Origin: a virus
IMG/VR virus record: IMGVR_UViG_3300042090_001199
Coordinates: 1-45,460 of that record
Length of the DNA: 45,460 nt
Reading direction: 5' to 3' (one strand)
Position numbers and translations under genes: made by a program. Shown one piece after another: positions 1,988 through 45,460 of the stretch. The notes below the pieces were generated by a model. That model searched no databases. It was not told where the DNA came from and was given only the letters and a program-made list of their open reading frames with translations. The stretch's first letter is position 1; each line of letters opens with the position of its first letter.

Positions 1988-2007
1988 GGCTTGATTGGAA
2001 AGTCAAG
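1988..2007 (-). promoter_or_regulatory. Conserved promoter/operator motif, site 1 (before dnaB)
   Basis: Read on the minus strand the bases are CTTGACTTTCCAATCAAGCC. They match the window-wide consensus CTTGAC[A/T]-N5-A-[C/T]CAAGTC except for the T of the final GTC. CTTGA and TCAAG form an inverted repeat. The first T of TTGACT lies 40 bases before the dnaB ATG. No convincing -10 hexamer is seen 17 bases downstream. Confidence 0.7.
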
Positions 2008-6019: not shown

Positions 6020-6370
6020 TTAGGTGTTGTATTGATCGGTCAATGCTGATCCCAGCTCGACCCGCTCCATATCCACCATGGGGGACTTGGTTGGTTTGTC
6101 AAGCTGATTCTGAGACGAGGTGAGTTTATAGTACCGCCACGCCGTCTCAAGCTCGTCAGCGCCGCGTGGGGTTTTGAAGAAGGCGAGTGAGTGCATGGTA
6201 TAACCGGGATTGAGTCCCGTCCAGAAGGCTTCATCAGGATACTTGGCCAGAAGATGGTTCAGGTTCTTGACCTCGCGCCCCCACATCACACCCTTGTTTG
6301 GGCCAGTCAGTATCTCCTCTTTGACCAGACGCTTGATCACATCCAGCTTAGTGCGATGCGGCATGCTCAT
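6020..6370 (-). CDS. Unknown 116-residue protein
   Basis: Not recognised. It is a soluble, fairly charged protein whose start overlaps the ClpP-like stop (ATGA) and whose stop is 3 bases before the recombinase gene, so it is part of the same operon. The stretch LDKPTKS near the C-terminus is encoded by the promoter-like motif at 6084-6103, so this part of the reading frame is under double constraint. Confidence 0.75.
   Translation of the reverse strand: MSMPHRTKLDVIKRLVKEEILTGPNKGVMWGREVKNLNHLLAKYPDEAFWTGLNPGYTMHSLAFFKTPRGADELETAWRYYKLTSSQNQLDKPTKSPMVDMERVELGSALTDQYNT
6084..6103 (-). promoter_or_regulatory. Conserved promoter/operator motif, site 2 (inside gene, before recombinase)
   Basis: On the minus strand the bases are CTTGACAAACCAACCAAGTC, a full match to the consensus and 19 of 20 identical to site 7 in the divergent hub. 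It lies within the coding sequence of the 116-residue protein, 68 bases upstream of the recombinase ATG. No clear -10 is seen. Confidence 0.75.
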
Positions 6371-8674: not shown

Positions 8675-8694
8675 GACTTGGTTGACTTGTCAAG
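8675..8694 (-). promoter_or_regulatory. Conserved promoter/operator motif, site 3
   Basis: The minus-strand sequence CTTGACAAGTCAACCAAGTC is a full consensus match. The first T of TTGACA is exactly 36 bases before the ATG at 8657, which would put a sigma70-type transcription start at or next to the start codon. It abuts the stop codon of the 68-residue gene. Confidence 0.75.
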
Positions 8695-9331: not shown

Positions 9332-12259
9332 TTATCTAACGGGACAAGCTCCCCCTGCACATTCAAGTTCTGTAAGCACTCCATTACCAACGTCATCGTC
9401 CACTGAATCTAGTAGCTTGATCTTGGCCAACATTTCGTTGTATTGATCCTCCGTGATCTCCTGATAAGGTGCTTGCTGGAACCCATGTTTGTCTCTGAGA
9501 AGAAAGCTCACCGATTTGACACTCTTCTCGTAATTATCCTTAAGCCAATCCTTAAGAACGGGAAGCTCTTCCATATCGTAATAGGCTGTGACCGATACAG
9601 CATTGTCAGACCAAATACTTTGGAGCTTGGCCACCATGTCAAGCTGTTTGGTCACCGACATATCCTTGGCGAGGACAGCCCCCTTGGGTGTCTTGCACGG
9701 AAATGAAACCACCACAGTATCACGGTTTTCGGAATTGTCGAAGTTTTTCACATACTCGACTGGATAACCATGCCTGCGACAAACCTCCACGAGCTTGTCA
9801 TTACTGCCCACACGAACACGCCGGATATAAAACTGAGAATAGGCGGGGTGAATACCGGGAGTGGCACCAGCAAGCAAACTAAGGCTACCACTAGGCTTCA
9901 CAGTGGTCAGCTTGATGCTAGCTGGCAATCCACGTTTCTTGCTCCATTCCTTGTCAAACCTGCGCAGCTCAACATAGCAGTCATCAAGCCAATCAATCTT
10001 GTCGAATGACTGACATATGCCCGTTACACCCAAGCCAAGACGCATGTTCTTGTGAACGATTTCCTCTGTTTCTTTGTGCAAAAACGACATAGCACATATG
10101 GCCTTCTGGGTTTTGTAGAGAAGCTTGGCGCAATCAATAAGAACATCCTTTGTCGGAATGTTATTGAGGTAAAGCTCGGAAAGATTACAGCACTCATAAG
10201 ATGCGAGCCCAATTTCTCCGCATGGATTAGCGCCGTTCAGATTGTCCTTGTCTACGGGATAGAGAGAGCTGTCCTTCAACAAGCCGTCCTTAAGACGGCC
10301 ATATCGTTGAGATAATGGAAGATTGAAGAACCCATAAGGTTCTCCCTTTGCGTAGCCGGTCTTCGAATCAATCATATAGCCATTACTCCATATCTCGTCT
10401 GATATATGATCATAGGAATCGGCGTAGATCGTGTTGTTGGACATGGCCCGCCAATTCGGCACATTGCCCAAACTCCAGTTCTTGGCACGAAGATAGAGAT
10501 AATCGTCGGGATCTCCCAATGCGATCTCTGCCGATCTGCGAACATTGCCTGCCACTACAATGGACCCAATGATGTTGCAGATATCCAACGCGTCTACAGA
10601 CCTGAGCTTTTTCTCTTCCCGGCTTACCATGATCTTGGCTATCTTCTGCATACCTTCAATGAGTATCTTGGGGCCAGATGCCGTGCCACCAAATCCCTTA
10701 ATGGGTTCGCCCGCGCCACGAACAAGGATGGTGGAATACGTGAAAGACTTGCCGGTCACATAATAAGCATCCAAAACTTTACCGAGAAGCTTAACCCACC
10801 CAGCCCGGCTATCAGGCACGATGAAGTCGGCATCCTTGGTCCCCTGATGTTCGATCTTAACTCCCGCCTTGATACGGGGCAATTCGTGGACGTCTTCACG
10901 GCGAATACTGAATCCCACTCCACCACCCAACATTAGATTCTCAAACAGAAACAGAAAAGCTTTAGGTTCATTTATAGAACAGAACCAGCAGTTGCCCGTC
11001 AGAATGTTGCCTTCAATGACAAAGCTATGAGTATCAGGAACTTGCGCACAATAAACCTCTTCAAACAGATCAGTCTTCTCCACGCTTACCACCTTAGCGT
11101 AATTCTCATACCGTTCGGAGGGCTCTTCAAGCTTGGACCTGTGATCAGATCGGATCAGTAATATCTCAGGGTTATCGTTCAGGTTGAACGAGATAGACCA
11201 CAACTCTGACGGCTCGCCGCTAAAAGGATTCTCGTCTCGTTCGAGATATGGATCACCAGTACGGAATCCACATACAGCAGCCACATCTTTAGCAAACAAG
11301 AGCTGATCCTTCTTGGCCGAGAAAAGACGCATACTGCCATTCGCCTTGTTTATTGATCCATCAGCAGCAATCCAGCCAGCTAAGAAGCCCATCAGATAAG
11401 ACTTGTTCTCTCGAATGGACGGTAGCTGCTTCCAAGCATTCGGGAAGCCGCCGTACCGAACATGACGAGGATTTTCCGGGTTGGTCCAGCTCACTCTATT
11501 CAGGATGAAGTATTGCTTACACTCGTCATATGTATTATCGATCAAATCGATGAACGACTCATATCCATTGCACGATCCATCACCAACAATCAAGCCGTGT
11601 TGAATGCCCTGTGGACTTAGATACTGACACATGGTCTTAGCTCGTACCACGGGCACTTTGTCTCCTACCCTGAGCCCCTCTGTGGTTGTCTCTGTACGAT
11701 CAGTATTCCCCTTGTTCAATAGCAGCCAACGATGACCGGGGGTAGCAAGCACTTCCCATCGCTTGGACCCATGCGGGTTAGAGAAAGTCACGCGATCAAT
11801 ATGTTGCTGACCAAAGCTTTTGATGGGGGCTTCTACAAATTTACCGTATGCTGTGACCACCTCCACCGTCTTCCCAACAAGGTCGCCAATGGCCTTCCAT
11901 CCATCTCGGGTTAATACCTTCGTGTTGTACTGGAAGCAGTTAAGCAAGCTATTACCGAAGTACTTCTCCACTGTTGGCGTGCCCAACTGCCACAACATAC
12001 GTCCCGCATAGTTGCATCGCAGATTGAAGATGTGGTCAAACAGTCGTTTAGCCTCCTCCTCTGTATACTCTGCACCAACGCGTTGTGCGCCGTTGATGCA
12101 TCGCCCCACTGTCTGATACCATTCTTCGCTGCCGCCGCCTTCAAGTATCCGAGAATAAGTGCGCTTGTAAACAAAATATCCCATTCCGTTGAAACCGAAT
12201 GGGGCGACTTTGTCCTTGTATGAATTAATGAATGCCGGTGAAAGTATGTCAGGAATCAT
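9332..12259 (-). CDS. nrdJ: Class II (adenosylcobalamin) ribonucleotide reductase with intein
   Basis: The 975-residue frame contains an intein at residues 108-423; the spliced protein would be about 659 residues, near the size of monomeric class II reductases. The extein has NSLLN|CWFCSI (redox Cys), NPCGEIGLASYECCNLSE (thiyl-radical Cys in NPCGE and the partner Cys in ECCNL), PSGSLSLLAGATPGIHP, and the C-terminal shuttle pair ECAGGACPVR. It reduces ribonucleotides using coenzyme B12 and works without an oxygen-dependent metal cofactor, so host B12 would be needed. Two upstream elements precede it, a conserved motif (12317-12336) and a GTGTAA (12287-12292). Assignment to the triphosphate reductase branch is by overall pattern. 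Confidence 0.93.
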   Translation of the reverse strand: MIPDILSPAFINSYKDKVAPFGFNGMGYFVYKRTYSRILEGGGSEEWYQTVGRCINGAQRVGAEYTEEEAKRLFDHIFNLRCNYAGRMLWQLGTPTVEKYFGNSLLNCFQYNTKVLTRDGWKAIGDLVGKTVEVVTAYGKFVEAPIKSFGQQHIDRVTFSNPHGSKRWEVLATPGHRWLLLNKGNTDRTETTTEGLRVGDKVPVVRAKTMCQYLSPQGIQHGLIVGDGSCNGYESFIDLIDNTYDECKQYFILNRVSWTNPENPRHVRYGGFPNAWKQLPSIRENKSYLMGFLAGWIAADGSINKANGSMRLFSAKKDQLLFAKDVAAVCGFRTGDPYLERDENPFSGEPSELWSISFNLNDNPEILLIRSDHRSKLEEPSERYENYAKVVSVEKTDLFEEVYCAQVPDTHSFVIEGNILTGNCWFCSINEPKAFLFLFENLMLGGGVGFSIRREDVHELPRIKAGVKIEHQGTKDADFIVPDSRAGWVKLLGKVLDAYYVTGKSFTYSTILVRGAGEPIKGFGGTASGPKILIEGMQKIAKIMVSREEKKLRSVDALDICNIIGSIVVAGNVRRSAEIALGDPDDYLYLRAKNWSLGNVPNWRAMSNNTIYADSYDHISDEIWSNGYMIDSKTGYAKGEPYGFFNLPLSQRYGRLKDGLLKDSSLYPVDKDNLNGANPCGEIGLASYECCNLSELYLNNIPTKDVLIDCAKLLYKTQKAICAMSFLHKETEEIVHKNMRLGLGVTGICQSFDKIDWLDDCYVELRRFDKEWSKKRGLPASIKLTTVKPSGSLSLLAGATPGIHPAYSQFYIRRVRVGSNDKLVEVCRRHGYPVEYVKNFDNSENRDTVVVSFPCKTPKGAVLAKDMSVTKQLDMVAKLQSIWSDNAVSVTAYYDMEELPVLKDWLKDNYEKSVKSVSFLLRDKHGFQQAPYQEITEDQYNEMLAKIKLLDSVDDDVGNGVLTELECAGGACPVR
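10991..11938 (-). mobile_element. Intein with LAGLIDADG endonuclease in the reductase gene
   Basis: The element covers residues 108-423 of the reductase frame (316 residues). It begins with Cys (CFQYNTKVLT, block A) and has the TPGH block B (173-176). Two LAGLIDADG motifs, QHGLIVGDGS (about 220-229) and LMGFLAGWIAADGSI (289-303), give a homing endonuclease. It ends EVYCAQVPDTHSFVIEGN, then ILTGN followed by Cys. The penultimate His of ordinary inteins is Gly here. The +1 Cys of the C-extein is the reductase's redox-active cysteine, so the gene gives active enzyme only after splicing. Confidence 0.92.
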
Positions 12260-12292: not shown

Positions 12293-12316
12293 TGGTCTCC
12301 GCTTAGTATCATCACT

Positions 12317-12336
12317 GACTTGATGATTCAGTCAAG
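12317..12336 (-). promoter_or_regulatory. Conserved promoter/operator motif, site 4 (before nrdJ)
   Basis: On the minus strand CTTGACTGAATCATCAAGTC is a full consensus match with a perfect CTTGA/TCAAG inverted repeat. A GATACT sequence 19 bases behind TTGACT could be a -10. The reductase ATG is 76 bases downstream of TTGACT. Confidence 0.72.
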
Positions 12337-12358
12337 AAAAATCGCGCAAAACCGGCGA

Positions 12359-17464: not shown

Positions 17465-18085
17465 TCATGCTCTCCTGAGCACCCACGATGAATGAGTCGT
17501 GCCAATAAGGAGGTTGTTCTCCTGTGCAAACTGGGTTACAGCCCGCCGCACCTGCTCTCCAGAGAACCAGTCGTGTCCCGCAAACAGACCGTCGTCCCTC
17601 ATCTTAGGGTACCATGCCCGCATGTCGGCAAGAACATTGTCATAGGAGTGCCCCGCATCGATAAAGCAGAATTTGATTGACTTGTCGGCAAAGAGTGCGG
17701 CCATCTCTGCGGACTTCCCGACAAGAGCGGCGGTCAACAAGCGGTCACGTCCATTGTGGGCGAGATTCTTGTAGAACTCGGCCAGCATGCATCGCGGGCC
17801 ATGATCCTCAATCCACTTGCGGCTGGTAAGACCGGATGCGTTCATCACCATATCAAGCGAATGGCCGCCATCCCTGCACATCTCATCGATGTCAAACAGG
17901 TCCACGGCGTACAGCTTGATCTTCTTGTTGGACAGTTTGACCCGATCAATCATCGCGGCAATCGACTCGCCCACGAACGATCCCACCTCGACAAAGACAT
18001 CCCCATCCTTGGCTATGTCTACCGCGTGCTGTTGGACATCTTCAAAGTCGGATACTGGATTATCGAGTCCCTTTTCGAACCACAT
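17465..18085 (-). CDS. Class I SAM-dependent methyltransferase (Methyltransf_24-like)
   Basis: The start is set at ATG 18085 (206 residues) because AAGGAG lies 8 bases upstream and the codon forms a TGATG junction with the upstream stop. The SAM loop is VFVEVGSFVGESIAAM (30-45), an acidic strand end is YAVDLFD, and the metal-type motif FIDAGHSYDNVLADMRAWYP is at about 146-165, followed by GLFAGHDW. This matches the cephalosporin-hydroxylase/macrocin O-methyltransferase-like group often found in glycan gene clusters. It probably O-methylates a sugar; the acceptor is unknown. Confidence 0.8.
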   Translation of the reverse strand: MWFEKGLDNPVSDFEDVQQHAVDIAKDGDVFVEVGSFVGESIAAMIDRVKLSNKKIKLYAVDLFDIDEMCRDGGHSLDMVMNASGLTSRKWIEDHGPRCMLAEFYKNLAHNGRDRLLTAALVGKSAEMAALFADKSIKFCFIDAGHSYDNVLADMRAWYPKMRDDGLFAGHDWFSGEQVRRAVTQFAQENNLLIGTTHSSWVLRRA

Positions 18086-18681
18086 CAGAGAAGCTCCTTG
18101 AGATTGGTGACAATACACACCGCATTGGCATTGTTGAAATACCCGGCTGGAATCGGACGATCACTGTGTCCAAACGGAACATTGAAATCCAATGGATCGC
18201 CTTTCACGTATTCGTTTTTCCAGTTGATGCGCCGCATGATCAGATGTTGTATCTCAGGGTGTGACTTCATGTAAGCATCAAGGAATGGATTATATCCGAG
18301 TCCCCATGTTATAAGGTAACTTGATGCATTTGTCAAGACTTTATTGAGGAAGGTGATCGAATCTTGGTCAGATCCATTGCCATATTCCTTGGTCATCATG
18401 TGCTCGATGGTGGAAATGGAGAGTACATTACGACCTGCATAGTCGATGTCTAACGCGTTAAGCTTCTTGGACTTGGGATGAAGATCCGCAAGATCTGCAA
18501 TCTCGTGATTCTCCCTACCATAATAGGGTATTACCGCTCCTACTTCCAGCGTGGTGTCACCGAACTTATCGAGGAACCAGCGGCCAATGGCCACCTCTAT
18601 ACTACGCTCATTCTGGTATGCCTCGTTAAAGAACTCGCGAGCATAACGCAATCTGATATCATTGATCTGGAACTGGTTCAT
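18085..18681 (-). CDS. Methyltransferase-like protein of the glycan operon
   Basis: The 198-residue protein has a Rossmann-like pattern. TTLEVGAVIPYYG (about 43-55) stands where the SAM loop would be, LNALDIDY is an acidic strand end, and NVLSISTIEHMM recalls the post-motif strand of class I methyltransferases. The canonical GxGxG is not present, so this is a weak family call. It overlaps the upstream gene by 23 bases and the downstream methyltransferase by TGATG. Confidence 0.5.
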   Translation of the reverse strand: MNQFQINDIRLRYAREFFNEAYQNERSIEVAIGRWFLDKFGDTTLEVGAVIPYYGRENHEIADLADLHPKSKKLNALDIDYAGRNVLSISTIEHMMTKEYGNGSDQDSITFLNKVLTNASSYLITWGLGYNPFLDAYMKSHPEIQHLIMRRINWKNEYVKGDPLDFNVPFGHSDRPIPAGYFNNANAVCIVTNLKELL

Positions 18682-26095: not shown

Positions 26096-27685
26096 TTAAA
26101 GCACAATTGATTGCAATGTCAAGTCTTTTCTGTCACCACCGTCCAGTGGTAACACAGCTTGCTCAACCGCTTCCTGAGCCACCTGCTCGACCACCTTCTG
26201 CAAAACGGGTTTGGTGCGATGTTTCTTGTAAACCGACCAGTCTCGGATGTATTCAAGCTTGTCTATAGCGCGGGTGCGGGCAACATAGTCTATGTTTTTC
26301 TCCTGTTCTTTCTGCCACGGCTGTATGACGTTGTACGGGAACGGAATAAGCTGCGGCTCAAGAATGAAGACATTATCGGCTTCCAATCCCTTGAAGCGAT
26401 GCACAGTGCTAAGAATGATTCCGGTTCCCATGTCGTCGGAGAAGATCTTTATAATCTTGGCCAAAACTTCCGATACCAACTCACAGTCGTCTGACAAGAT
26501 GTTGATGATCTGTATCTTCTCCATCATGGTTTGGTACTCATGTCGTTCGGTTATATCCCGGTCGGGGTATTTCTTGTTGAGTTTCTCGACCATGCGTTCG
26601 CGCTTGCGGTCGATGCCGTCGTCCATTTCTTCCACCGTCTTGTCCTGATAGGGTTTGAGAAACGAGGTTAGGCTCGCCCCCAAATCATTGCCGCGCACAA
26701 TGGCCTTCCTGCCCTGTTTGATAAAGTCGAGACACAGCTGTACCAAAGGAAAATTGGTGCGGCAGAGAACCACGTCGCCGTCCCTGACGTTCTTGATTGA
26801 CCCCTCGACCACCACCTTGCCCACCGGGGCATTATCCCGAGCTTCTATCTCCGGCACTATTTTCTTGGCGTGCTTCACCACCTCCAAGGGGCAGCGGTAA
26901 GAGATGGACAGGGGCAGCTCTATCGTGTTAGGCTCAGCAAGGGCAATCTCGAACAACTTGGGATCACAGCCAAGATGTCCGTAGATGGATTGCCGGGGGT
27001 CCCCGATCATTACCAGCCTGCCGCCGGGGTTCAACAGCTTGCGAATGAACGTGTACTGTGCTTGGCAGCAGTCTTGGAATTCATCCACGTAAACGATGTC
27101 GTACCCACGATTCTTAAACGTATGTGTGGCAGGTATATAGATCAGGTCGGTAAAATCAATATCCTTGTGATTTGTCGTCACGTCTCTGAACGTTTCCACT
27201 GCATATGCTGGCTCGTCGTCCCAGTCCTCTATGTCGTACACATCGCAGATTTCCTCAGCGTCCCCATAGGTTGACTTCAACGTCAACCTCATGAGATCCA
27301 CTATCTTGCGCACCCTGCCAAAAAACGCCACCCTCTCGTATGGAGGAACCTTCCACCGATTCTCCTTGCTAAGCCTTTGAATCGTGTCGAACACCTTGTC
27401 CTGTTCCACCTCCTTAAACGGATAAAGCTGTTGTACAACGGCATACCCTTGAGAATGTACCGTGGAAGCCTTGACAGAATAGGGCAGTTTTTGCTTTAAG
27501 GTGTTGGCTATGCTCTTGTTAAACGCCAAAAACAAAACCTGTTTGGTGCTGGAAACATACCGCAGGCTTTCCAGTGCGGTTGTAGTCTTGCCAGACCCCG
27601 CCACGGCGTTGATAATCAAGTGACCGTTTGAGTTGCGAATATAGTCAAAAATTGCCTGCTGATATTTGGACGGAATCATACCCAT
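26096..27685 (-). CDS. UvrD/PcrA-like SF1 DNA helicase
   Basis: ATG 27685 is chosen (529 residues); the longer frame upstream is low-complexity hub sequence. A second ATG at 27679 is also possible. Motifs in order are NAVAGSGKTT (Walker A, about 26-35), VYVDEFQDCCQAQ (Walker B), MIGDPRQSIYGHLG (motif III), LSISYRCP (IV), STVHRFKGLEADNVFIL (V) and VARTRAIDKLEYI (VI). It is an SF1A helicase that translocates 3'-5' on single-stranded DNA and works in repair or replication. Its last codons carry motif site 5. It is driven from the divergent hub, with motif site 6 placed 36 bases before the ATG. Confidence 0.92.
   Translation of the reverse strand: MGMIPSKYQQAIFDYIRNSNGHLIINAVAGSGKTTTALESLRYVSSTKQVLFLAFNKSIANTLKQKLPYSVKASTVHSQGYAVVQQLYPFKEVEQDKVFDTIQRLSKENRWKVPPYERVAFFGRVRKIVDLMRLTLKSTYGDAEEICDVYDIEDWDDEPAYAVETFRDVTTNHKDIDFTDLIYIPATHTFKNRGYDIVYVDEFQDCCQAQYTFIRKLLNPGGRLVMIGDPRQSIYGHLGCDPKLFEIALAEPNTIELPLSISYRCPLEVVKHAKKIVPEIEARDNAPVGKVVVEGSIKNVRDGDVVLCRTNFPLVQLCLDFIKQGRKAIVRGNDLGASLTSFLKPYQDKTVEEMDDGIDRKRERMVEKLNKKYPDRDITERHEYQTMMEKIQIINILSDDCELVSEVLAKIIKIFSDDMGTGIILSTVHRFKGLEADNVFILEPQLIPFPYNVIQPWQKEQEKNIDYVARTRAIDKLEYIRDWSVYKKHRTKPVLQKVVEQVAQEAVEQAVLPLDGGDRKDLTLQSIVL
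26104..26123 (-). promoter_or_regulatory. Conserved promoter/operator motif, site 5 (before glycan operon)
   Basis: On the minus strand the bases are CTTGACATTGCAATCAATTG; the last half-site departs from CAAGTC (CAATTG). TTTAAT lies 16 bases behind TTGACA, a near-standard promoter. The first T is 36 bases before the ATG at 26086. It overlaps the end of the helicase coding sequence. Confidence 0.72.
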
Positions 27686-27702
27686 GAATATAAATGATGA
27701 TA

Positions 27703-27722
27703 GACTTGATGGGTAAGTCAAG
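27703..27722 (-). promoter_or_regulatory. Conserved promoter/operator motif, site 6 (before UvrD-like gene)
   Basis: On the minus strand CTTGACTTACCCATCAAGTC is a full consensus match with a perfect CTTGA/TCAAG inverted repeat. The first T of TTGACT is 36 bases before the ATG at 27685. The -10 area is AT-rich (CATTTATATTC), and there is no ribosome-binding sequence. Confidence 0.75.
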
Positions 27723-27748
27723 AAAAATACGCTGTTAAAAAAAATAAG

Positions 27749-27778
27749 CTTGACAAACCAACCAAGTGTGTATATAAT
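27749..27778 (+). promoter_or_regulatory. Perfect sigma70-type promoter over conserved motif, site 7
   Basis: CTTGACAAACCAACCAAGTG (27749-27768) is a consensus match. TTGACA at 27750-27755 is followed by exactly 17 bases and TATAAT at 27773-27778, an ideal housekeeping promoter. The predicted start is near 27785. Transcription would run into the GCGA-repeat and hairpin region rather than directly into a gene, since the first clear rightward gene begins at 28242. Confidence 0.85.
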
Positions 27779-27782
27779 GCGA

Positions 27783-27945
27783 GTGAAGCGAGTGAGAGCG
27801 CAGCGAGTCCCAGCGGTAGCAGGGGACGACGCGAAGCGATGCGCGAGCGAGCGAAACGAGCTTATATGGATCAAAAGCCACGCTTGGGAGAATACGCGAG
27901 AGGAAAAGATAACCCGAACGAGCGGAACAACGTGAAGCGAGTGAG
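27783..27945. repeat. Direct repeat GTGAAGCGAGTGAG in the hub
   Basis: The 14 bases GTGAAGCGAGTGAG occur at 27783-27796 and 27932-27945, about 149 bases apart, within a longer purine-rich stretch of GCGA/GAGC words. They could be iteron-like or part of an RNA. Confidence 0.55.
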
Positions 27946-28001
27946 GGTGAAGTGGGAGAATAAACGCCGGGATTACACGTGTATCGATTCACACCTTCTA
28001 C

Positions 28002-28060
28002 CGCATTCGGCTGCGCCTCATTTGGTGCCTTCGGCACTGAGGACTCGCATACGCTCGTCC
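28002..28060. other. Cluster of hairpins in the hub
   Basis: CGCA-TTCGGC-TGCG (28002-28015) is one small hairpin. CCTCA (28016-28020) pairs with TGAGG (28038-28042) and GTGCC (28025-28029) with GGCAC (28033-28037) around a TTC loop. AGGAC (28040-28044) can instead pair with GTCCT, so the structures at 28016-28042 and from 28040 onward compete. No poly-T follows, so these are not simple terminators. Confidence 0.6.
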
Positions 28061-28203
28061 TATCCTCTTTTCGAAAGATGGGTGGTGTCTTATACACGAT
28101 AGATCGATACCCGTCCAACCATCTACCACTTGGTCACCATGTCAAGGTTTTTCTGGCGCTTCATGGTAGAAGCCGTGATGTTGGTTATGCTGGCGCAAAT
28201 AAG

Positions 28204-28223
28204 CTTGACAATTCAACCAAGTC
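28204..28223 (+). promoter_or_regulatory. Conserved promoter/operator motif, site 8 (before rightward operon)
   Basis: The plus-strand sequence CTTGACAATTCAACCAAGTC is a full consensus match. The first T of TTGACA lies 37 bases before the ATG at 28242. The region between has ATGATG at the -10 distance and no ribosome-binding sequence. Confidence 0.75.
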
Positions 28224-28241
28224 ACTCATGATGGTGTTCAT

Positions 28242-28634
28242 ATGACGGTTCAAGACGTGGTAAACCAGCTGATTATACGGTTCTGTGAGAAGGACGTGTT
28301 CTGTTTCGAGGAGATAGATGCTATCATCACCGACAAGAGCGTTAGCAAGGACAAGGAACTCATTGTGCTTCATGCTCTAAAGTACATGGAAGAGAACGGG
28401 TTAATCGTCAAGATTGACAAGGACAAATGGGTGCTTAGCAGACCAATCACCAGCATAGGTCAGGATGTGGGTTTGTCTATACAGACCTGTATACTCATCA
28501 AGGATACGATCATAGGCTACTACAGAGCCAACAACATGCCTTATGAGAACATCGACGTGTTTAACATACACGAGGGGCATATTCAAACCCTGCTCAGAAT
28601 CGTAAACGACGCTTTGGATAATCAGAAAATCTAA
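28242..28634 (+). CDS. Small winged-helix-like protein, first rightward gene
   Basis: In this 130-residue protein the first 70 residues have the helix-turn-helix-strand-strand composition of a winged helix: CFEEIDAIITDKSVSKDKEL, then ALKYMEENGLIVKIDKDKWVLSRP, where the last part looks like the wing. The C-terminal half is helical. As the first gene behind motif site 8 in the divergent hub it could be a regulator of the phage, but no DNA target is shown. Not matched to a named family. Confidence 0.6.
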   Translation: MTVQDVVNQLIIRFCEKDVFCFEEIDAIITDKSVSKDKELIVLHALKYMEENGLIVKIDKDKWVLSRPITSIGQDVGLSIQTCILIKDTIIGYYRANNMPYENIDVFNIHEGHIQTLLRIVNDALDNQKI

Positions 28635-30729: not shown

Positions 30730-30749
30730 CTTGACATTGCGATCAAGTC
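30730..30749 (+). promoter_or_regulatory. Conserved promoter/operator motif, site 9 (before SSB-like gene)
   Basis: The plus-strand sequence CTTGACATTGCGATCAAGTC is a full consensus match with a perfect CTTGA/TCAAG inverted repeat. It lies 92 bases before the ATG at 30823, divergent from the GTGTAA element of the leftward gene. A TATAAC sequence nearer the gene (about 30785) is a possible second -10. Confidence 0.72.
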
Positions 30750-30822: not shown

Positions 30823-31500
30823 ATGGCACTGACAAACGGCAAGAACTTCGCAAGCGGCCCGCTCATCTTTCTGAGCCCCCGTTCGCAAAAGACGGTGGAC
30901 GGCAAGAAGGTAAAGGTGGATTCCCACTTCGAGATCAGCAGGATAGGTGAGGACAAGAAGATAAAACCCTCAACGGAAACCTGCACGACGGTCAGCGGAA
31001 ATCTGATCAAGATAGAGCTAAAGGAAAGAGAGTTTAACGGCAAGATCAACAAGCACGCCGTGCTCTACATCAAGGACGGAGAAGATACGTATCATTTGGA
31101 CCTGACCTATCGCCTGTCCAGCCGCTCGCTCTTCAACGCCATGCTGAACCTGCCCGATGCCAAGAACATCAGCATTGGAATCTACGACAGCAAGAAGGGA
31201 TTCGAAACCTTCTCCCTCCGTCACAATGACGAGGTCATCAAGTGGAAGTACAAGCTGGAGGAGCTGCCTCCCGTGTTCGAGGTCAAGAACAAGAAGGGTG
31301 AAGTGATCCAGAACGACTATTCCGATGTGGATGGATTCTTCGAGACCGGTCTTCGCGAGTTGTCCGAGAGGTTGTTCGGCCCCGGAAAGACGGGCGCTAA
31401 GACAGAAGCCGCCGCTCCTGCCGCCCAAGAGGCCGCCGCCGCGCCTTCAACTACAGAAGCCCCCCCAAAAGAAACGATAGACGAAGACGTACCGTTCTAA
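30823..31500 (+). CDS. SSB-like single-stranded DNA-binding protein
   Basis: In this 225-residue protein residues 1-150 are beta-rich, as expected of an OB fold (GPLIFLSPRSQKTVDGKKVK, HAVLYIKDGEDTYHLDLTYR). Residues about 190-215 are an Ala/Pro/Thr/Glu low-complexity linker. The last nine residues, ETIDEDVPF, form an acidic tail ending in Pro-Phe like that of bacterial SSB, which docks partner proteins such as polymerase, helicase and primase. The tail is the main evidence; the core is not recognisable as the usual SSB family. CAGGAC lies about 8 bases upstream of the ATG. Confidence 0.78.
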   Translation: MALTNGKNFASGPLIFLSPRSQKTVDGKKVKVDSHFEISRIGEDKKIKPSTETCTTVSGNLIKIELKEREFNGKINKHAVLYIKDGEDTYHLDLTYRLSSRSLFNAMLNLPDAKNISIGIYDSKKGFETFSLRHNDEVIKWKYKLEELPPVFEVKNKKGEVIQNDYSDVDGFFETGLRELSERLFGPGKTGAKTEAAAPAAQEAAAAPSTTEAPPKETIDEDVPF

Positions 31501-41377: not shown

Positions 41378-42349
41378 ATGGACGCGCTGCGCCGCGCCTT
41401 TAATGATATCTCGCTTGGGTATAGCCGTGAGACATTAAACGGTCGTACGATCTATATCAAGCATCTTAACTACGCCGATCAGACGGATAATGATGCCAAA
41501 CGAGAAGAGTTCTACAACGAAGCTGCCACGCAAGGCTTGCAGAACAACGAACAGAAGCTGGCCACGCTGATAGATGGAGGGATGTGGAGCGACAAACAAG
41601 AGAAGGAGATAGCCGCCGCCAAGGGTCAGATTACCGCGTTACTGGAAGGCAAGCAGAAGAACATGAGCATGCCTTCCTTGGTACAACACTACACCGACAT
41701 GATCAAAAAGGAGGAGGCATTGTACCTTGAGAAGGTTAATGCACGAAACCGATTGCTTGGTCTTACTTGCGAAACCTATGCCGACCGGCAATTGAACGAT
41801 TATTACATCTACAGCAACCTGTTCAAAGACTCGGCGCTTACCACACCCTTTTTTGCTCAGAACGAGTTTGATTACCTTACCGAAGCAGAGATGGAAGAGG
41901 TAACCAAGGCATATAATCGGGCGATAGACGTATGCTCCGAGAACAACATCAAGAAGCTGGCAATCCAGCCGTTCTTTCAGAACTACTTCGGGCTTACCGG
42001 CGACAATCTGGGACAGTTCTTTGGAAAGCCGATCTGCAGTCTCACCTTCTTTCAGGTGCGCCTACTGGGGTGTGGTGCTCACTTCCGTCACATCTTCTCA
42101 AGCAACGACGTTTCCAAGTTTCCCAAGAACGTACAAGACGATCCAGATCTTCTCAGTGAATATGCCGCTGCCGCCAAGCGTGGCAAGGATGAGATGCAAA
42201 AACAGGGGGCTTACGACGAAGATGCAATCGTGGTGGGGGCCAAGAAGGAAGATGCTGATGTTCTAGGAGTTAAAACTAGACCGGGATTAGCGTCTGAAAT
42301 CGTCAAGAGCGGTGGCGATGTGATCAAGTGGATGCAAAAAAGCCACTAA
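41378..42349 (+). CDS. Tail assembly protein candidate (323 residues)
   Basis: The protein is helical with a Gln/Glu/Asn-rich N-terminal half and a cysteine-containing middle (TCETYADRQLNDYYIYSN, CSLTFFQVRLLGCGAHFRH). It is the gene directly before the tape measure gene. Likely a structural or chaperone protein; not recognised. Confidence 0.58.
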   Translation: MDALRRAFNDISLGYSRETLNGRTIYIKHLNYADQTDNDAKREEFYNEAATQGLQNNEQKLATLIDGGMWSDKQEKEIAAAKGQITALLEGKQKNMSMPSLVQHYTDMIKKEEALYLEKVNARNRLLGLTCETYADRQLNDYYIYSNLFKDSALTTPFFAQNEFDYLTEAEMEEVTKAYNRAIDVCSENNIKKLAIQPFFQNYFGLTGDNLGQFFGKPICSLTFFQVRLLGCGAHFRHIFSSNDVSKFPKNVQDDPDLLSEYAAAAKRGKDEMQKQGAYDEDAIVVGAKKEDADVLGVKTRPGLASEIVKSGGDVIKWMQKSH

Positions 42350-42353
42350 ACTG

Positions 42354-42359
42354 GTGTAA
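42354..42359 (+). promoter_or_regulatory. GTGTAA element before the tape measure gene
   Basis: CTGGTGTAAATCTACATAT lies 32 bases before the ATG at 42386, with AAGGTAAGG as a ribosome site between. It is similar to the element at 9282. Confidence 0.45.
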
Positions 42360-42385
42360 ATCTACATATATACCAAAGGTAAGGC

Positions 42386-45300
42386 ATGGCTGATCCACTG
42401 TTCACGATTGAAGGGCGTTTAGCGATCTCCCCGCAAGAGGAGGCGGCGTTTCTGCGTCGAATGCAGGACATCCAGAACAGGGTGCCCGTATTCAATTTCA
42501 AGACGTCAGGCGGCGGGTTTGCCGACCTCAATCGAGACGTAAGCTCCTTCACCAGCTATCTTGACAGGGCAAACCAACGAGTCATTGGCTTCACTTCGTC
42601 CGTAACCATCTTGTATTCAACGATAAAGGTGTTCAAAGATATCGTGACATCCACCATCGAAGTGGACAAGGCTTTGACCGACATCAACTCGGTCATGAAG
42701 CTAAGTTCGACAAACCTTGACAAGTTCAGCAAGGACTTGTTCGATGCGGCGCGGGCCACATCGTCATCGTTCGGAGAAGCGGCTGAAGCGGCAAAGGATT
42801 TCTCCCGTCAAGGACTGAGTGTTGAGGAGACGCTGAGACGCACCAAGGACGCCTTGACCCTAAGCAGGCTGGCTGGCATCGATCTTTCCGATTCGATTAA
42901 GGAGCTGACGGAGTCCACCAACATCTTCCAGAAGAGCGGGGTAACCACTACCGATGTGGTCAAGGCTCTTACCACTGTATCTTCCCACTTCGCTGTAAGC
43001 ACAAAGGATATCTCGGACGCCTTCACTCGTTTTGGCGCAGTAGCACAGCAAGCCGGGTTGTCGTTCAATCAGACCATCTCGCTAATCACGGCGGTCGAGC
43101 AAACATCCCAGCGTGCGGGTGCCGCCGTTGGAACCGCGCTGACCAGCATCTTTGAAAAGCTGCAACCCAAAGACGCGATTGAACAGCTGAATCATTTGGG
43201 CGTGGTCGTGAAAGACACCTCTGGCAACACGCTGCCCTTGCTCAACATAGTGGAGAATTTGGCAAAACAGTATGGTGGACTTGCCCCCAATATACAGGCC
43301 ACCATAGATAAGATGGTAGGTGGATCACGTCAAATTGAAATCCTCAAGGCTGGTATCATTCAGTTAGCAAACTCCAACGGTACATACATACAAACGAACA
43401 AGCTGTTGGCGAACGGTTCCGACGACGTTACGGCAAGACTGAATGCCCAAAATCAATCTATACAAAATCTTTTAAGCAACTTTGGCACTGCTGCAAAACA
43501 AATCAGTTCGAATATAGGGCAACTTAGTGTAGCACCATTGCTTAAGAATGTCCTTGGTGCTGCGAATGACAATCCAATTACCAAAGCCTTAGAAGACGCC
43601 TCGGGATCTGCAAGTACCGCTGGAGGAAAACTGGCAGAAGGAATATTGCGTGGTCTGGGAGACGCTTTGATATATGGCCTTGGTCCCATTCTAGCTCTGG
43701 CCGCCTCCAAAGTAGTGTCACGTACTTTTGGCTCTTTGTTCAACGATATCAAAGACCAAGCCAGTCTGAACGATGCTGCCAAAGCACAAGCTAGTATACA
43801 GAAAGAAATTATTAACCTATATGCGGCTGGTGGTGACAAGTTGCAGGCACAGCTTGCTACAATGAACAGTCTTGCGGAAAGAGCGGCATATCTTGCCGCT
43901 ATACTTAATGACGTTAGAGCCTCTACTGGCGCACAAGCGGCACAATTATCGGTAGAAGCTGGCTTAGTATCCAAGCTTATTCCTAGGGCCGCATCAGGTT
44001 ATTTATCTGTTGGACAAGAATCGGCAGCGATTGCCGCTGGAGTAGGTGGTGCCCCTCCTACCGCTCATGCAGTGGTGATACCCAATTTTCGCTATGGTCC
44101 CGGCTTGGTAGGACCCATAGTGGCCAATAGTAGTGAATACAAAGTCAATCTTGGATCTGGTGATGCAATTTACAACCAAGACATGATCAAACAACTAGGT
44201 CTCCCTAGTAATGCTACACCCATAGCCGCCGGAGGGTATACCCCATTTGGTCGTGGAGATGGACAGCAGATTTTACGTAATGCTGCCGGACAACCTTTGA
44301 GCAATGATGCCTTGTCGGCAATTAACGATCTGCTAAATACCCTGTCTCAAACCAATGGTTCTGCAATAGCCGGTACGGCTGCCGCCATCAAGAATCTGAT
44401 ATCTAGTCTTAACGCTGATTCACAAAACGCTGTTATTCGGGCAGCGCAGGCCGCCTCTGCACCAGTCACTGGTAGCATTAGCAGTCAGGCAAGCCCAGAA
44501 CTTTTTGCTCAATACCTTGCACAACGTCAGTCCGTTGCGGGTTTTGGTAATCCCGGTACATATAAAGGTGGAAATAGTGGAGGTATAAATGTAGGGCCGC
44601 TGGGAGAAACATTTGCCGAAATACAATTGCAGAAATCTCTCAAGGGACTGTCAAATGATCAGTTGCTAGATCTATTGGACACCACAGGGGGCGCGGGGTT
44701 AACTGGTAATATTACTAGGACACAAGCTATTCAAGGCGCAAGACGGCAATTGATTCCCCACCCAACCGACATAGATCGTATTGCCACGACTATTGGTCTT
44801 GGACGTTCTGGCACACTTAATACCGATTTTGCAAACCAAGTTAAAACATCTTTAGGTGATGGAATGTCATTAGAAGAGGCTTACAAAGAAGCCTCTGACG
44901 CCTATATTCAGGCCGGTGGTTCTGCCAAAAGACTAGCCACTGCCCAGACTAGTTTGTTGGAAAGTTTGATTGGATACGAGAATAGCATTAAACTGGGCAG
45001 TCTTGATCGTATAAGTACACAAGGAAGCATTGGTCGTCAGACAATCCTTAATGCTGCAAACCAGAGCTTGGCGGGAGGTGCATCTTTTGATACGCTAACA
45101 ACCGAACAGCAGGCGGCTGTTGTAAACAAACTCAAACTGGGAGCAATTCAGAAGCTCGGGTTTACTGGGTCTACAGCTGATATACTTAATAACAAGGATG
45201 CGAGCATTCAGATAAATCAGGTAGTGGCTCAACAACTTGCGCAGATTAAATCAGCTAACTCTCTATCGACAAATACGTTGGGTATTGGTGGATCAAACCC

Positions 45301-45460
45301 CGGGTGGTTTTCTCGTGCCAACTCTTATCTTGGTCGTGGTAATCTTGGTTTGGCGGCGGCTATTGGCCTGCCGTTTGCCGGAGGCGCGTTAGATCAATGG
45401 CTTGGCGATGCAGGGGGAACAGATCAGGGCAAAACCATAGGAGCAATATCTGGGGCATTG
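42386..45460 (+). CDS. Tail tape measure protein, cut by right edge
   Basis: The frame stays open for all 1025 codons to the last base, so the protein is longer. The N-terminal region (residues about 70-310) follows the TP901-type tape measure pattern: EVDKALTDINSVMKLSSTNL, ALTTVSSHFAVSTKDISDAF, AAVGTALTSIFEKLQ. The later part is Ala/Gly/Asn-rich with long helices. Tape measure proteins set tail length and may form the DNA channel, so the phage has a long tail. A ribosome site AAGGTAAGG precedes the ATG. Codon use becomes more AT-rich after about 43360. Confidence 0.9.
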   Translation, partial: MADPLFTIEGRLAISPQEEAAFLRRMQDIQNRVPVFNFKTSGGGFADLNRDVSSFTSYLDRANQRVIGFTSSVTILYSTIKVFKDIVTSTIEVDKALTDINSVMKLSSTNLDKFSKDLFDAARATSSSFGEAAEAAKDFSRQGLSVEETLRRTKDALTLSRLAGIDLSDSIKELTESTNIFQKSGVTTTDVVKALTTVSSHFAVSTKDISDAFTRFGAVAQQAGLSFNQTISLITAVEQTSQRAGAAVGTALTSIFEKLQPKDAIEQLNHLGVVVKDTSGNTLPLLNIVENLAKQYGGLAPNIQATIDKMVGGSRQIEILKAGIIQLANSNGTYIQTNKLLANGSDDVTARLNAQNQSIQNLLSNFGTAAKQISSNIGQLSVAPLLKNVLGAANDNPITKALEDASGSASTAGGKLAEGILRGLGDALIYGLGPILALAASKVVSRTFGSLFNDIKDQASLNDAAKAQASIQKEIINLYAAGGDKLQAQLATMNSLAERAAYLAAILNDVRASTGAQAAQLSVEAGLVSKLIPRAASGYLSVGQESAAIAAGVGGAPPTAHAVVIPNFRYGPGLVGPIVANSSEYKVNLGSGDAIYNQDMIKQLGLPSNATPIAAGGYTPFGRGDGQQILRNAAGQPLSNDALSAINDLLNTLSQTNGSAIAGTAAAIKNLISSLNADSQNAVIRAAQAASAPVTGSISSQASPELFAQYLAQRQSVAGFGNPGTYKGGNSGGINVGPLGETFAEIQLQKSLKGLSNDQLLDLLDTTGGAGLTGNITRTQAIQGARRQLIPHPTDIDRIATTIGLGRSGTLNTDFANQVKTSLGDGMSLEEAYKEASDAYIQAGGSAKRLATAQTSLLESLIGYENSIKLGSLDRISTQGSIGRQTILNAANQSLAGGASFDTLTTEQQAAVVNKLKLGAIQKLGFTGSTADILNNKDASIQINQVVAQQLAQIKSANSLSTNTLGIGGSNPGWFSRANSYLGRGNLGLAAAIGLPFAGGALDQWLGDAGGTDQGKTIGAISGAL

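Follow-up and report, generated by a model that had tools for sequence, protein, structure and literature searches.

The window analysed here, 45,460 bases in all, is the whole of a virus record that is classed as linear and may be a fragment. Its genes are read leftward up to 27.69 kb and rightward from 28.24 kb, and the region between these two points, the hub, is the subject of what follows. The left arm carries replication genes: at the hub a UvrD/Dda-like helicase, and beyond it a B12-type ribonucleotide reductase, a UvsX-like recombinase, a DNA polymerase exonuclease subunit, a dUTPase and a DnaB-like helicase. The reductase gene (9332–12259, minus strand, 975 aa) has a weak match to an intein-splicing domain over residues 166–419, below the Pfam cut-off. 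Both arms, from 6949 to 36000, also have numerous sugar-related genes (glycosyltransferases, a C-methyltransferase, a nucleotide-sugar epimerase and an aminotransferase), a large share for a 45-kb stretch. The final 3 kb (42349–45460) is without a closed rightward open reading frame of at least 60 aa; it may belong to a single large gene truncated where the contig stops, which is conceivable because open-ended frames were left out of the list of reading frames. The left end is matched, with two mismatches, by a single viral contig of 8,092 bases, and for the hub itself there is no nucleotide-level relative among 50,697 phage records. The features of the hub, from left to right, are as follows.

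26096–27685, minus strand: UvrD/Dda-like phage helicase, first gene of the leftward arm (phrog_1967, E 3e-89), its ATG at 27685
27705–27722, minus strand: P_L1, CTTGACTTACCCATCAAG, with −35 TTGACT at 27721–27716 and −10-like CATCAT at 27699–27694; the helicase ATG is 8–9 nt beyond
27749–27766, plus strand: P_R1, CTTGACAAACCAACCAAG, which with the following TATAAT makes a perfect promoter
27773–27778, plus strand: TATAAT, the −10 of P_R1, after a 17-base spacer (16 in most other copies)
27779–28128, no strand assigned: seemingly non-coding tract, its first ~180 bases GCGA-rich and 69–71% purine on the plus strand
28129–28146, minus strand: P_L2, CTTGACATGGTGACCAAG, with −10-like GATGGT at 28123–28118 (3 of 6 matches), aimed left into the tract; the next clear start in that direction is the helicase's
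28204–28221, plus strand: P_R2, CTTGACAATTCAACCAAG, with −10-like CATGAT at 28227–28232; the start of the next gene is 10 nt beyond
28242–28634, plus strand: first gene of the rightward operon, 130 aa, with coding-like codon use

The original prediction was of a divergent hub with a perfect promoter, and both are borne out, beyond the strength claimed for them. TTGACA (27750–27755), the 17-base spacer and TATAAT (27773–27778) are all exact, and on either strand of the 45,460 bases this is the sole match with zero mismatches (score 12/12). The descriptions of what lies downstream were accurate too. In the reportedly GCGA-rich sequence there are 10 GCGA within 27779–27958, against at most 6 GCGA/TCGC per 180-base window elsewhere; the 14-base direct repeat, GTGAAGCGAGTGAG, is present at 27783–27796 and 27932–27945, within a 21-base repeat of 86% identity; and, as the claimed gap implies, the first clear gene start is at 28242. 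What had gone unnoticed is that the promoter is a family member rather than an isolated oddity, with further copies in the hub at 27705 (−), 28129 (−) and 28204 (+).

The first clue to that family came when a search of the hub against the rest of the window matched 25 bases at 6085–6109 on the opposite strand, and pattern searches then gave a repeated element. Spanning the −35 box and part of the spacer is an 18-bp palindrome, CTTGAC-N7-YCAAG(T), of which the phage has 12 good copies. In addition to the four in the hub, these are:

1990–2007, minus strand: intergenic, the start of the DnaB-like helicase 13 nt past the −10
6086–6103, minus strand: within the end of the gene at 6020–6370, the UvsX-like gene 59 nt on; 24 of 25 bases shared with the copy at 27743–27767
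8677–8694, minus strand: intergenic, a start codon 9 nt past the −10
9626–9643, minus strand: a weaker copy (leave-one-out score 16.1) within the ribonucleotide reductase gene; 1 of its 18 bases differs from the copy at 28129
12319–12336, minus strand: a weaker copy (leave-one-out score 16.0), intergenic, the ribonucleotide reductase gene 49 nt on
18320–18337, minus strand: within the gene at 18085–18681, with TATAAC at spacing 17
26106–26123, minus strand: one end base changed, CTTGACATTGCAATCAAT, at the end of the helicase gene, a start codon 9 nt past the −10
30730–30747, plus strand: intergenic on the right arm, the gene at 30823 lying 65 nt on

Could so short an element recur to this extent by chance? 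Its core palindrome, CTTG-N10-CAAG, has 14 copies where dinucleotide shuffles give 0.94 ± 0.96 (maximum 4), and it is the most over-represented of the 5,888 gapped 4-mer palindromes tested (p 5e-6, ~0.03 when corrected). The refined form CTTGAC-N7-YCAAG occurs 11 times, counting either strand, against 0.06 expected, a figure that is descriptive because that form was chosen after the sites were seen. When each of the 12 sites in turn was left out of the matrix every one was recovered, 10 of them scoring above all non-training positions in the window; the exceptions, at 9626 and 12319, were outranked by one and two positions, respectively.

Several properties independent of how the sites were selected indicate promoters, among them the spacing to the −10. 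At 9 of 12 sites a −10-like hexamer, with A at its second and T at its sixth position, lies exactly 16 bases past the −35 (chance expectation ~0.06 for each site); of the other three, two have TATAAT or TATAAC at spacing 17. The hexamers themselves are mostly poor, with 3–4 of 6 matches. Eight of the 12 copies are intergenic, though only 3.9% of the span is, the other four being inside genes or at gene ends. Eight copies also have a start codon no more than 70 nt downstream of the −10, for which random placement gives a mean of 1.0 and reached eight in none of 20,000 trials. On both arms all copies are oriented along the direction of the genes.

Some copies resemble each other beyond the core, with one partner on the left arm and the other in the hub: 6085–6109 with 27743–27767 (24 of 25 bases), 9626–9649 with 28129–28152 (21 of 24) and 12308–12342 with 27694–27728 (80% of 35 bases). 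Such sister pairs suggest that promoter modules have been duplicated or have undergone gene conversion, and the copies most alike may have arisen by recent duplication rather than being independently conserved sites. A separate observation concerns translation. Shine-Dalgarno-like motifs are scarce, being found at 9 of 45 gene starts (452–42349) where about 11% would have them by chance, and several copies have their start codon only 8–13 nt past the −10, so that mRNAs made from there would have little or no leader, hinting at a host that initiates without reliance on Shine-Dalgarno pairing.

Several familiar types of site were considered for the element and set aside. An iteron-type origin does not suit copies scattered over the whole genome at irregular intervals. 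The idea that selection acts on LDKPTK, a peptide encoded where the 6086 copy lies, does not suit a set in which most copies are between genes. FNR-type sites are TTGAT-N4-ATCAA and MerR-type promoters have a 19-base spacer; neither the half-site spacing nor the promoter spacer of the present element fits.

The explanation we consider probable, with reasonable though not high confidence, is that the hub is the central divergent control region of an uncultured phage, in which a phage-wide palindromic element lets one putative regulator switch gene blocks. Sigma-70-like promoters of host type would carry the element across their −35 box and as far as the middle of the spacer, and as it precedes gene blocks throughout the contig, one DNA-binding regulator, probably phage-encoded, could switch all of them together. 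Its invariant CAAG half sits in the spacer, palindromic with the −35, and sigma-70 makes no strong sequence demand there. We infer that a protein binds the element, and that it would act as a repressor rather than by activation of the type mediated by T4 MotA. The simplest binder would be either a dimeric DNA-binding protein overlapping the −35, i.e., a repressor, or a MotA-like activator, and with the site lying over the −35 the balance tips slightly towards repression. Within such a regulon P_R1, at 27750, comes closest to consensus of all the copies and probably serves the rightward operon as a second, more distant promoter.

The activating counterpart of that reading, which is possible but doubtful, has the copies as a phage-specific promoter class whose CAAGT spacer element is read by an activator or sigma-like factor so that the regulon is switched on. 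It accommodates well an almost invariant −35/spacer element joined to a poor −10 at a fixed 16-base spacing, and T4 middle promoters have a sigma-70 −10 together with a MotA site around −30 (PMC3016281). However, the element holds a near-perfect sigma-70 −35 (TTGACA/T), normally absent from activator-dependent promoters, and is palindromic in the manner of dimer operators. Among the proteins scanned against Pfam and PHROGs there is no MotA or sigma homologue, in a contig that may be incomplete, and the MotA N-terminal domain reached only E 1.4 in the Foldseek search with the model of the 28242 product.

Where might the regulator of the proposed switch be encoded? The motif is not enriched in the phage's protein relatives: in 85 loci collected via the helicase, the exonuclease and ribonucleotide reductase, 1.19 Mb in total, 13 matches score above 16, against 14 in the 45-kb window, which suggests that the regulator is phage-specific. 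In five of the seven loci with helicase homologues (L004, L005, L006, L009 and L010) a divergent hub is not evident, since a same-strand reading frame ends within ~600 bases upstream. The product of the 28242 gene has no relatives in the viral contigs, phages, genome contigs or PDB entries searched. Its N-terminal 70 residues are modelled as helix-helix-helix-strand-strand, a winged-helix-like order, at pLDDT about 58 (45 for the full protein), and the Foldseek matches listed for the model are mostly winged-helix domains, none at E ≤ 0.001. On that fold, modelled at low confidence, the 28242 product could be the regulator, which is a lead rather than a finding, and its gene becomes the first regulator candidate for the phage. 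Sequence alone has yielded a regulon map (the element, 12 sites, their orientation and the expected starts) for a phage that lacks close relatives in culture.

Within the hub the four copies form two divergent pairs, 27705(−)/27749(+) and 28129(−)/28204(+). The outer members are proximal to genes, the helicase (8–9 nt) and the 28242 gene (10 nt), respectively. The two rightward copies are identical at 24 of 26 bases, a stretch that takes in seven upstream bases, and the hub therefore has the look of a divergent promoter pair that was duplicated, its two versions separated by a spacer. It is quite a contrast that the inner copies, P_R1 and P_L2, converge across ~350 bases, and that their nearest clear starts are 465 and 432 nt off, when 8 of the 10 other copies have a start within 70 nt. 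This geometry would suit overlapping antisense leaders of an excludon-like kind, with P_R1 (27750, +) and P_L2 (28145, −) giving the two divergent operons long transcript versions that overlap by ~350 nt and interfere with each other. We regard that as rather unlikely, as the −10 of P_L2 is weak and a duplicated divergent pair with filler could suffice.

The sequence between the inner copies had been proposed to be a structured non-coding RNA or a leader with attenuation, transcribed from 27785. A strong promoter followed by ~450 bases without a clear gene invites such a proposal, as do two hairpins having TGAGG in common. Of the run of hairpins that was described, the overlapping stems at 28016–28042 (−11.4 kcal/mol) and 28040–28066 (−8.1 kcal/mol) can indeed be drawn, but folding is at chance level: the 457 bases of 27785–28241 have a z of −1.0, 20 of 100 shuffles folding equally well, and six sub-windows range from −1.87 to +0.68, the lowest being 28100–28241, where two copies of the DNA motif face each other. 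Rfam gives the tract no match at the gathering score nor at E ≤ 1, no terminator-like site is listed at the competing stems, blastn against phage and plasmid records finds no relatives of the tract, and pattern scans of viral and genome contigs find no exact match to a segment of it. A structured RNA or attenuator is accordingly highly improbable, and the reading based on RNA structure should fall unless transcripts say otherwise.

That a small gene in the tract is expressed from P_R1 is scarcely credible. There are open frames at 27839–28102 (+), 27979–28245 (+) and 27735–28118 (−), but a stop-poor tract of low complexity can produce such frames, and their codon scores of −0.01 to −0.10 bits/codon are non-coding-like (reference genes average 0.24 with a minimum of 0.05, wrong frames −0.22 with a maximum of 0.09), while the gene at 28242 scores as a real gene. 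The frame at 27839–28102 has no family match.

A transcription-primed origin had been a further suggestion. In its R-loop form, RNA from 27785 would anneal over the purine-rich tract and prime leading-strand synthesis, as at T4 oriF. The contig's strongest consensus promoter is at the divergence of gene direction, beside a helicase gene; the purine bias of the tract ranks 3 of 4,528 windows; and the stability of its RNA:DNA hybrid relative to the duplex is in the top ~1% of the window, a value that is permissive only. T4 origins are likewise near points of transcription divergence with phage promoters (PMC3016281). Against this, the minimal T4 oriF and oriG have an A+T-rich unwinding element and the present tract, with a GC content of 0.44–0.72 in 50-base bins, is not A+T-rich. 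The switch in GC skew for which a check had been proposed is absent from the hub, where AT skew alone changes sign and gene direction also turns, and iterons are absent apart from the genome-wide motif. As promoter copies of this kind occur at 12 places, the promoter is not in itself specific to an origin. An R-loop origin is on balance improbable. Quite unlikely, too, is a combined reading in which the inner promoters fire convergently and the same regulator sets the contest of antisense leaders or gates an R-loop origin at the tract; if true, it would couple the timing of transcription to the start of replication.

By analogy, the regulon switch proposed here may work like one of three known arrangements: the middle promoters of T4, the operators of mycobacteriophage L5 or the SPBRE/MrpR system of SPbeta. 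T4 middle promoters similarly join a phage-specific box at −35/−30 to a sigma-70-like −10, and in both phages one such promoter is at a point of transcription divergence near replication genes (PMC3016281). The box in the present phage differs in being palindromic with an intact TTGACA, a MotA homologue was not found among the proteins scanned, and, in contrast to T4 oriF, the sequence downstream is purine-rich. The operators or stoperators of L5 are, like the present copies, many sites distributed genome-wide and oriented with transcription, but they are 13-bp asymmetric sites, found in short gaps between genes as well, and their proposed role is to stop elongation (PMC9283540); the palindromic form and the fixed spacing to the −10 make the present element promoter-associated. 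SPbeta is a Bacillus prophage, whereas no lysogeny genes were identified here in the families scanned. Its SPBRE is a 15-bp motif bound by MrpR, a master repressor with a recombinase fold (PMC10516654), and the present element is instead an 18-bp palindrome on the −35 box. What the two have in common is some ten copies of a short element in promoter regions across the genome, in each case found first by sequence alone (PMC10516654).
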